A stretch of 64,000 bases of DNA, taken from NCBI GenBank assembly GCA_019694555.1, contig JAIBBS010000009.1:1-64000 (forward strand), given 5' to 3'. The DNA is from Nannocystaceae bacterium. Lineage in GTDB: Bacteria > Myxococcota_A > Polyangia > Nannocystales > Nannocystaceae. Both the position numbers and the translations under genes were made by a program. Of this stretch, positions 23,638-27,143 are shown piece after piece (position 1 is the first letter of the stretch; every line of letters starts with the position of its first letter). A model generated the notes under the pieces. That model ran no database searches and was not told the origin of the DNA. It saw only the letters and a list, made by a program, of their open reading frames with translations.

Positions 23638-25305
23638 GTGAACGGACGACGCTCGTTCCTCCACGGTGCCGCGGCGATCGGCCTGCTGTCGGGCTGCCGC
23701 CGCAGCGCGCCGACGGTGCCGCCGCGCAGCGGCCCCGCGACGGTGGTCGTGCGCGGCGGTTCGATCCGCACCGGCGTCGCGGCCGAGCAGGTCGAGGCGC
23801 TGGCGATCCGCGACGGCGTGGTGATGGCGGTGGGCTCGCAGGCCGACGCCGCGGCGTGGATCGGTCGCGACACCACGGTGGTCGATCTCGCCGGCGGCAG
23901 CGCGTGCCCGGGTCTGTGCGACGCCCACGCGCACCTGGTCGGGCTCGGGCGCTCGCTCGCGGTCGTCGATCTCCGCGATGCACGGTCGCACGACGAGGTG
24001 GTCGCGCGCCTGCGCGAGCATGCGCCGGCGTCGGGATGGATCGTCGGGCGTGGCTGGGATCAGAACCTGTGGCCCGGCGGCGCGATGCCGGACCACCGGC
24101 CGCTGACGGCGGCGTTTCCCGATCGTCCGGTGTGGCTGCGCCGCGTCGACGGCCACGCCGGCTGGGGCAACCTCGCGCTGCTGCGCGAGGCCGGCATCAC
24201 GCGCGCGAGCAGCTCGCCCGCCGGCGGCGAGATCCTGCGCGACGGCGCCGGCGAGCCCACCGGCGTGCTGGTCGACGCCGCGATGGCGTTGGTCGCGGTG
24301 CCGGCCCCCGCCGCGGCGACGCGGCGAACGCAGCTGCTCGCGGCGCAGCAGCACGCGCTGCAGCGCGGCCTCACCGGCGTGCACGAGATGGGCATCGACG
24401 AGGCCGACGACGCGCTGTACCGCACGCTCGCCGACGAAGGCCTGCTCGCGCTGCGCGTGCACGCGTACGCGAGCGAAGCGTGGCTGACCGGATCGCTCGC
24501 GCAGCGACGACCGGACGCCGTCACCCCGAGCACGCGCTATGCCCTGCGGGGCGTGAAGCTCTACGCCGACGGTGCGCTGGGCAGCCGCGGCGCCGCGCTG
24601 TTGGCCGACTACGACGACCGTGCCGGACACCGCGGGCTCATGCAGCACACGCCCGCCGAGCTCGAGGCGCTGGTCGCCCGCGCCACCGAAGGCGGCTGGC
24701 AGCCGGCGACCCACGCGATCGGCGACGCGGCCAACCGCGCGGTGCTCGACGCCTACGAGCGCGTCATGACGGCGGCGCAACGTCGCGCGTTGCGTCCGCG
24801 GATCGAACACTGCCAGGTGCTCGCACCCGGCGACGTGCCGCGCTTTGCGGCGCTGGGCGTCATCGCGAGCATGCAGCCGACGCACGCGACCAGCGACATG
24901 GCGTGGGTGCCCGATCGCATCGGCGCGCGCTCGCAGGGCGCCTACGTGTGGCGCAGCCTGCTGCTGCAGGGCGCGAGCGTGTGCCTGGGCAGCGACTTCC
25001 CGGTCGAACGCGTCGAGCCCACGCTCGGGCTCTACGCCGCGATCACGCGCCAGGATCTGCAGGGCAATCCGCCGCAGGGCTGGATGCCGGAGCAGCGGCT
25101 CTCGCTCGACGAAGCCGTGTTCGGCTTCACCCAGGGCGCCGCGTTCGCGGCCGGCCGCGAGGGCCACCTGGGCACGCTGGCACCGGGCATGCGCGCCGAC
25201 GTCACCTGCTTCGCGGCGCCGCTCGACGAAGCCCATCCGCACACGATCGCGGCGCTGCCGGTGCTCGCGACCATCGTCGACGGCACCGTGGCCTGGCGCG
25301 CGTGA
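23638..25305 (+). CDS. YtcJ-like amidohydrolase, Tat lipoprotein
   Basis: 555 aa. N-terminus NGRRSFLHGAAAIGLLSGC has a twin-arginine motif and a lipobox (Cys20), so Tat export and lipidation are expected. The body is an amidohydrolase-3 (YtcJ) TIM barrel: metal ligands His97/His99 (CDAHAHLVGLG), GVKLYADGALGSRGA with the probable bridging Lys, THAIGDAANRAVLDAY, RIEHCQ and LGSDFPVE with a metal-binding Asp. Probably hydrolyses an amide, imine or related C-N bond outside the cytoplasm; substrate unknown. TAGCGT (23625-23630) lies 7 bases before the GTG. Confidence 0.87.
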   Translation: MNGRRSFLHGAAAIGLLSGCRRSAPTVPPRSGPATVVVRGGSIRTGVAAEQVEALAIRDGVVMAVGSQADAAAWIGRDTTVVDLAGGSACPGLCDAHAHLVGLGRSLAVVDLRDARSHDEVVARLREHAPASGWIVGRGWDQNLWPGGAMPDHRPLTAAFPDRPVWLRRVDGHAGWGNLALLREAGITRASSSPAGGEILRDGAGEPTGVLVDAAMALVAVPAPAAATRRTQLLAAQQHALQRGLTGVHEMGIDEADDALYRTLADEGLLALRVHAYASEAWLTGSLAQRRPDAVTPSTRYALRGVKLYADGALGSRGAALLADYDDRAGHRGLMQHTPAELEALVARATEGGWQPATHAIGDAANRAVLDAYERVMTAAQRRALRPRIEHCQVLAPGDVPRFAALGVIASMQPTHATSDMAWVPDRIGARSQGAYVWRSLLLQGASVCLGSDFPVERVEPTLGLYAAITRQDLQGNPPQGWMPEQRLSLDEAVFGFTQGAAFAAGREGHLGTLAPGMRADVTCFAAPLDEAHPHTIAALPVLATIVDGTVAWRA

Positions 25306-25332: not shown

Positions 25333-25494
25333 TCACCAGGGCGACGAGCTACCGAACGGGTTCTCCGGATCGGGGAAGGTCGGCCCAGGGAATGGGAAGG
25401 GGAACGGGATGCAGCCGCCGTCGTCCGGGCGCAGGCCGCCCTCGGTCCGCTCGAGCTCGTCCTCATCGATGGTGTGCAGCGCTTCGTGGCTCAT
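25333..25494 (-). CDS. Small Gly-Gly-leader-like peptide
   Basis: 53 aa from the ATG at 25494; an in-frame GTG at 25566 would give 77 aa and overlaps the upstream stop by GTGA. The first 20 residues end in DEDELERTEGG, which looks like the acidic ELxxxxGG leader of peptides processed by double-glycine peptidase transporters. The remaining 33 residues are unusual: one Cys, four Asp, many Pro and Phe (CIPFPFPFPGPTFPDP) and a C-terminal SSSPW. A GAGG stretch stands just before the ATG. Coupled to the LysM/M74 endopeptidase gene. No C39 peptidase, transporter or modifying enzyme is in the window, so the RiPP-like reading is inference. Confidence 0.55.
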   Translation of the reverse strand: MSHEALHTIDEDELERTEGGLRPDDGGCIPFPFPFPGPTFPDPENPFGSSSPW

Positions 25495-25562
25495 GACCTC
25501 GACGTGCCGCACGGCGGCCCCGGGTTCCACGACGCCCGCGGCGGGCGGCGGGACCGCTGCGG

Positions 25563-27062
25563 TCACGGCCGGAAGCGGACGTGGAAGTGGTTCGCGTGGC
25601 CGCGCCAGTGGCGGATGATGCCGTGGCTGCGCCCGCGACCGCGGGGGTACTGGAACAGCTCGTCGAGCGTGTCCTCGTCGACGCCCTTGTCCAGCGCGTA
25701 CTCGTAGAGCAGCTTCTGGATGCGGTAGTCCATGAAGATGTACGTGACGTCGTCGGTGTCGATGAAGGCCTTGATCAGGTTCCAGGTGCGCGCGACGTCG
25801 AGGTTGCGCGAGGTCGCGTGGCGGAACTTGGTCTCGTTCGCGTCGGGGCCGGTCAGCACGTAGCCGATGTCGACGTCGCGGCCGAACTGATGCGAAAGAT
25901 GCGGCGGGAACTTGCCGCCGCCGCGCTTGCTGATGTCACCGATGTGGATCTTGGGCCCGCCGGAGCTGCGGCGCTTGTAGTCCGCGACCGCGCCCTGGAT
26001 CGCGGCGATGGTCTTGCGGGTGCCCCACGCACCGGCCTCCCACTTGATGACGTAGTGCTTGCTCGGCGGCAGCTGCATGCCGTCGGGCAGGCGCCCGGTG
26101 TCGACGTCGCGGCCGCCGAAGCCGCGGACGATCGCACCGTCGACCCACACCACCAGCCGCTGGCCGTCGCGCAGGTGGTTGGGATCCTCGAGCTTGCCCT
26201 GCTGGAAGCGCTCGAGCTCCTTGGGGCTCAGGCCGTACTTCTCCGCGATGCCGCCGAGGTTCTCGCCCGATGCGACGGTATGGGTCGAGCGATGGCGCTC
26301 GCGCGGCGGGATCTCCGGGCACACGCGGATCTTCTTGCCGACGCTGAGCAGGTTGGGGTTCGCGCGCAGGCTCGCGTTGAGCCGCAGCAGGTCGCCCTTG
26401 CGCACGCCGTAGCGGCCCGCGATCTGCCCCAGGTGCTCGCCCGGGACCACCTCGTGCACGAAGAGCGGCGTCTCCATGCCGCACTCCTTCGCCTTGGTGA
26501 TCTTGCCCGCGGGCTTGTCGTCCTGCGGCTCGACGCAGACGCGCACGACCTGGCCCACGCGCAGCTTGTCGGGCGCGGCCGCGACCGCGGCGTTGCGCGC
26601 CTTGATGTCGCGCTCGCTGCTGCCGTACTGCTCGGCGATGGCCGCGAGCGTGTCGCCGGTTTCGACCTCGTGGCCCACGAGCTTGCCCCGCAGACCGCAC
26701 TTGCGCGCGGGCGGCTCGTCGTCCTTGGGCTTGGCGGCCTTCGACTTCGCGTCGTCGTCGTCGTCGTCGTCCTTGGTCTTCGCCTTGGACTTGGCGTCGT
26801 CGTCGTCGTCGTCGCGGTCGGCGTCCGCGTCGCAGACCTTCAGCACCTGGCCCAGCCGCAGCTTGTCGGGGTTCTCGCGCAGGGCCGGGTTGAGCTCGAG
26901 CAACCCGCGTTGGCTCAAGCCGTACTTCACCGCGATCGCGCTGGTCGTGTCACCGGCGGCGACCTCGTGACGACAGCGCTCGGGCGCGGCTGCCCGTGCG
27001 AGCGAGGGCGCGAGCGCGAACGCCACAACCGCGGCGCCCAGGAGGACTCGTGGCCATGCCAT
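25563..27062 (-). CDS. LysM-repeat peptidoglycan endopeptidase (M74/MepA-like)
   Basis: 499 aa. Signal peptide ([20 protein letters not shown]), then four LysM modules (about 30-75, 125-175, 195-240, 255-300) that bind peptidoglycan, each starting HEVxxGxx or HTVASGEN. An Asp/Lys-rich linker lies between LysM1 and LysM2. The C-terminal third is a penicillin-insensitive murein endopeptidase domain: [27 protein letters not shown] with zinc-ligand candidates, [15 protein letters not shown] and a terminal [10 protein letters not shown] (His cluster). It would cut D-Ala-meso-DAP crosslinks in the periplasm. The ATG at 27060-27062 starts the signal peptide; its stop overlaps a GTG that could begin the small peptide gene. 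Confidence 0.9.
26751..26813. repeat. Two GTC trinucleotide runs (Asp tracts)
   Basis: Seven GTC units at 26751-26771 and six at 26796-26813, read on the minus strand as GAC, encode poly-Asp blocks in the linker between LysM1 and LysM2. Such runs are prone to length change between strains. Confidence 0.85.
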
Positions 27063-27143
27063 GCGCGCCAAGGATTTGCACAGGCCCGACGGTACGCGCA
27101 ACCCGGTGCGGCTGGAGCAACCTCCACGCGCGCGCGCGTGGGC

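Follow-up and report, generated by a model that had tools for sequence, protein, structure and literature searches.

The 53-aa open reading frame on the minus strand of the window (the whole 64,000-nucleotide stretch of DNA analysed) very likely encodes a small peptide bearing the kind of tag by which bacterial exporters recognise, cut and export their peptides, and it is probably a true orphan precursor with a double-glycine leader, exported in trans by a C39 exporter (PCAT). This reading draws on the leader motif, the codon signal, a paralogous leader whose core differs, and PCATs in which Cys, His and Asp are intact, all of which are features of the sequence. In the mechanism that we infer for expression, cleavage, export and choice of exporter, one of three PCATs encoded elsewhere in the genome would bind the leader with its C39 peptidase domain and cleave behind Gly-Gly, and a type I system, formed by the exporter and an HlyD adaptor, would release the acidic, Pro/Phe-rich core of 33 aa, probably unmodified. 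The released core would act extracellularly on other cells, as a putative competition peptide or signal.

Translation of the minus strand gave 53 codons, comprising the leader MSHEALHTIDEDELERTEGG followed by the core LRPDDGGCIPFPFPFPGPTFPDPENPFGSSSPW (Table 1). Together with Pfam annotation of the upstream gene, this bore out the description given in a sequence-only reading of the locus, namely an acidic leader (20 aa) ending in ELERTEGG and a Pro/Phe-rich core of 33 residues (10 Pro, 5 Phe, a single Cys, Trp at the C-terminus) behind a LysM/M74 gene. The core is acidic (charge about −3.2, GRAVY −0.57), would have a calculated average mass of 3576 Da if unmodified, and had no match in Pfam, PHROGs, plasmids or phylum-wide, and none above the cut-off in NCBIfam; Rfam gave nothing for the 53-aa peptide.

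Table 1. Coordinates of the peptide gene, its parts and its flanking genes in the window.
Feature	Position	Strand	Remarks and basis
Precursor gene, 53 aa, double-glycine leader	25333..25494	minus	ATG at 25494, stop TGA 25335-25333; translation, codon score, shuffle control
Leader, 20 aa	25435..25494	minus	I(−12), E(−8), L(−7), T(−4), G(−2), G(−1); sequence, consensus, paralogous leader on G000:C321
Core, 33 aa	25336..25434	minus	pI 4.05, charge about −3; sequence and composition
Possible in-frame N-terminal extension from GTG	25495..25566	minus	rated less likely than the ATG start
LysM x4 / Peptidase_M74 murein endopeptidase gene	25563..27101	minus	upstream, co-directional; stop 25565-25563; Pfam
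Amidohydrolase (Amidohydro_3)	23638..25305	plus	convergent, 27 bp between its end and the peptide stop; Pfam

The leader had also been taken to be of the type cut by C39 peptidase exporters, and this was upheld, both by agreement with the consensus and by the presence of such exporters and of other such peptides in the genome. The PCAT leader consensus is L(−12)xxxE(−8)L(−7)xxxxGG (PMC6959990, PMC6363468), and the window leader has a hydrophobic residue at −12 (Ile), an acidic residue at −8 (Glu), Leu at −7, and GG at −2/−1. In solved structures, leaders dock via residues −12, −7 and −4, the last of which is thought to set specificity (PMC6959990); a V-4T leader was fully processed by the C39 protease LahT150, so that Thr at −4 is tolerated (PMC6363468). 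A GTG in the same frame at 25566 overlaps the endopeptidase stop codon (GTGA) and would give a 44-aa leader, with +8.9 bits of codon score from the extension. The ATG start was preferred because the paralogous leader on contig C321 is likewise exactly 20 aa from its ATG. The ribosome-binding site is weak (GAGG just 2 bases upstream of the ATG, no Shine-Dalgarno sequence at a good distance), and no sigma-70-like promoter was found by a scan that is uninformative for such a genome.

High-GC genomes contain many long open frames, and such a frame, arisen by chance in the gap that follows the endopeptidase gene, might spell a double-glycine leader with nothing secreted. Dinucleotide shuffles of the 257-bp gap gave an ATG-started ORF with a double-glycine leader in 3/60,000 cases with a strict motif, and in 18/60,000 with a loose one, corresponding to roughly 0.4 to 3 chance cases per 8.8-Mb genome with its thousands of gaps, whose number is an estimate. 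Since about one chance case is expected per genome, the leader motif alone is not decisive. This expectation, the abundance of long open frames, the weak ribosome-binding site, and the lack of orthologues among the relatives, phylum, class and plasmids searched are consistent with a chance frame, but we consider that explanation unlikely: codon usage strongly favours the peptide frame (+31 bits, with the other five frames between −11 and −75, using a codon model trained on the neighbouring genes), a paralogous leader of equal length with 9/20 residues in common is encoded in the same genome, and that genome also holds exporters and further double-glycine peptides.

The paralogue on contig C321 was recovered by whole-genome search (MNTKTMQQIDDADLERTVGG, followed after the cleavage site by LTFSDDGSGYVYADNGDVWYQTDSNVFVNNNTGETICGGLSCFA, the core beginning LTFSDDGSGYV). 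Both leaders are 20 aa long and closely similar (9 invariant positions of 20-21 aligned) and both have the uncommon Thr at −4; the cores are unrelated. Their similarity (BLOSUM 35) compares with a mean of 11 for randomised double-glycine leaders, P 0.007, which is a rough value from a null of twelve leaders only. A conserved leader with differing cores among paralogues is therefore represented by one close pair only, the window peptide and C321; in a set of 318 genomes from the class, this leader pair occurred in this genome alone. The idea that homologues would keep the GG held within the genome, where the paralogue has the same leader type and GG; beyond it, searches gave no orthologue of the peptide in 59 relatives, 379 genomes of the phylum, or plasmids.

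Two further double-glycine peptides, on C366 (MIDTNDIQLLSDAELEACNGG, then FWDGIAGAIAVAYFAYDVV..., with a second small ORF alongside) and on C3 (MTRTPTDPRCQPQPLDEVELAEVFGG, then YTATDDLWKWRRDAGGGDDSTAQW), were found by a DNA-pattern scan of the genome followed by an ORF filter. The scan gave 79 sites versus 27 in a reversed control, most of them inside larger genes, and sites were kept only if an ATG lay close by, the tail was short and the codon score was positive; the inventory is a lower bound. As a separate observation, tandem small peptides were seen in two genomes of the genus, on C366 (L152; 6225-6377 and 6390-6593) and on G001:C414 (L190; 1918-2109 and 2126-2299), with one member of each pair ending in CEC(T/S)SQ (CECTSQ in C366, CECSSQ in G001:C414); these pairs look like a conserved two-peptide bacteriocin-like system. 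Both G001:C414 peptides have double-glycine leaders and lie beside an ABC exporter that is interrupted by the contig end.

Three strong C39 domains are encoded in the genome, each within a full ABC exporter, on C197 (with HlyD), C73 and C98 (with HlyD). Sequence similarity relates all three exporters to PCAT1, ComA and LahT, which are of solved structure, and the catalytic Cys, His and Asp were invariant in an alignment of the three with three exporters of relatives. A proposed genome-wide check was thereby successful for similar leaders and for C39 exporters and came back empty for LanC-like modifying enzymes. The window's contig (C268) has no C39 domain, leaving the peptide and its putative exporter unlinked. 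Genetic linkage of precursor and exporter is usual for PCAT substrates, and is not strictly defining. In cyanobacteria, dispersed double-glycine precursors may lie far from exporter and modification genes (PMC3140520), and the window precursor resembles these in its distance from an exporter; however, many cyanobacterial precursors carry NHLP or N11P leaders or adjoin modifying enzymes, whereas the window leader is short and has nothing modifying nearby.

At the pocket position that senses leader residue −4, equivalent to PCAT1 G135 (LahT I137) and mapped by counting along the alignment, C98 has Arg, C73 has Val and C197 has Gly, and we hypothesize that the pocket Arg of C98 pairs with Thr(−4) of the leaders. 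A broader reading is speculative and unlikely: one exporter would serve, in trans, a dispersed set of orphan precursors of the double-glycine type whose leaders are alike and whose cores are unrelated, the C98 pocket Arg would pair with Thr(−4), and the core would represent a new type of cargo exported by a myxobacterium-like organism. If the window peptide is real, its acidic, Pro/Phe-rich core widens the known range of double-glycine cargo, leader residue −4 versus the exporter pocket residue becomes a directly testable pairing, and precursors in this bacterial family can be scattered far from exporters and would therefore be missed by cluster-based mining. Around the exporters themselves, the C98 locus (L059; 3580-9043) encodes HlyD and the C39 exporter, then an Amidase_2 (peptidoglycan amidase) protein, and no precursor was found near this exporter. 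On C197 (L057; 8841-9020), a 59-aa peptide MSKKKQNPFSLDEVLANLHSQAEAEWEAVDDAGNVIGGAAVAPSQASCHQATSSSGGWS precedes the C39 exporter and HlyD, and these are followed by a 409-aa protein that belongs to no known family, an arrangement that is possibly a RiPP-type cluster.

The peptide gene was singled out for its apparent coupling to a wall endopeptidase, and this link, the source of its special look, does not hold. Its neighbours by Pfam are the M74 endopeptidase, a kinase, the amidohydrolase and a transglutaminase-like gene. The endopeptidase ORF (512 aa, four LysM domains, Peptidase_M74 E 2e-10) has strong orthologues throughout the family, and a block of kinase, small protein and endopeptidase is common to three genomes (G001, G002, G012) and partly present in G003. 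In the three same-genus genomes (G001, G002, G003; 3/3), other sequence and no such peptide follows the M74 orthologue, and a contig search returned one endopeptidase orthologue, apparently on the same contig as G001:C648, also without the peptide. The peptide lies in a slot of variable content, because in G002 two other small genes separate the M74 gene from the same transglutaminase-like gene (72% identity to that of the window); peptide and amidohydrolase together fill the slot that differs there. A functional tie to the endopeptidase, for example as a regulator of wall activity or a co-expressed autolysis peptide, has some appeal, as the two genes are co-directional, the endopeptidase stop is 68 bp from the peptide ATG, the GTGA overlap offers an option for coupled translation, and Neisseria has bacteriocin-like Nap peptides that promote autolysis (PMC11798529). 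Such a tie is nevertheless highly improbable, given that none of the three same-genus genomes has the peptide after the conserved block, that other genes occupy the slot in G002, and that the other double-glycine peptides of the genome have different neighbours. The coupling was accordingly rejected, the enzyme being kept where the peptide is absent, and endopeptidase and peptide are probably not functionally coupled. For the orphan precursor, its place behind the endopeptidase would be lineage-specific, and would probably have no functional meaning beyond possible co-transcription.

A second proposal, that the peptide is a RiPP precursor whose core is modified before leader removal, would call for an enzyme encoded elsewhere, with no modifying enzyme found adjacent to the gene and none of the LanC-like cyclase class found in the genome-wide search. 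The core does hold one Cys and some Ser/Thr, and graspetide-like precursors (TTLALGEE repeats) of the same family also use double-glycine leaders near PCATs (G002:C164, G017:C137). Even so, we regard modification as very unlikely, since the neighbours include no modifying enzyme, the genome has no LanC-like cyclase, and the core has only one Cys and is missing the graspetide repeat pattern. A lanthipeptide in particular was rejected, as no LanC-like protein was found in the genome. Graspetide precursors of the plesiocin type, which in the same bacterial family occur near PCATs, have a GG leader in common with the window peptide; the window peptide differs from them in that it lacks TTxxxxEE repeats and has no ATP-grasp gene alongside.

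The preferred reading, an orphan double-glycine precursor, does not make the peptide a new class of secreted peptide, as had been suggested, the double-glycine-leader kind being already well known. It is like other PCAT substrates (class II bacteriocins and microcins, ComC-type signals, CtA) in its leader consensus, its short core and the presence of PCATs in the genome, and unlike typical ones in having no adjacent exporter or immunity gene, an acidic, Pro/Phe-rich core, and no known orthologue. The acidic core also departs from the cationic, amphiphilic core of class II bacteriocins. Compared with the lactobin A/cerein 7B family (class IIb two-peptide bacteriocins, TIGR03949), the window peptide shows a weak match in the leader part (11.1 bits, below the curated cut-off of 21.5 bits), and its core is not cationic; the C366 peptide is nearer to this model (17.8 bits).

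Several matches from the homologue searches were set aside. Phylum-wide core matches in G051 and G368 (E 0.007) were weak and partial, the G051 match having an internal stop, and neither was counted as homologous. Leader-profile matches in G003:C54, G002:C191, G017:C41 and G012:C31 are not peptides but lie within a large conserved protein. Matches in G056 and G588 are not small leader ORFs.

Double-glycine peptides lie near exporters in several relatives (G001:C414, G002:C164, G010:C45, G017:C137 and G017:C43), and because relatives encode such peptides around C39 exporters, the leader-exporter system is at home in the family. On these features, the source organism is putatively a Nannocystaceae-like myxobacterium. 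Plesiocin-like graspetide precursors with GG leaders and TTLALGEE/TTLAIGEE repeats were seen around C39 exporters in G002 (L202; 4381-4605) and G017 (L218; 9321-9557). Around C39 domains in two genera, G010 (L208; 5386-5538) and G017 (L220; 5299-5496) encode peptides with a GG leader and a 17-aa core that is almost the same in both, TTSCSCGGxDDCDQQQ; the conservation of this core suggests a defined product. G018, of the same family, has ten C39 domains and at least four double-glycine peptides on separate contigs. Double-glycine peptides of this genome (G018:C1262, L191, 4244-4399; G018:C729, L196, 1704-1886) have EF-hand-like loops in their cores (DPNGDGVIDDAELE, DLDGDGVTTDEELD), suggesting calcium-binding exported peptides.
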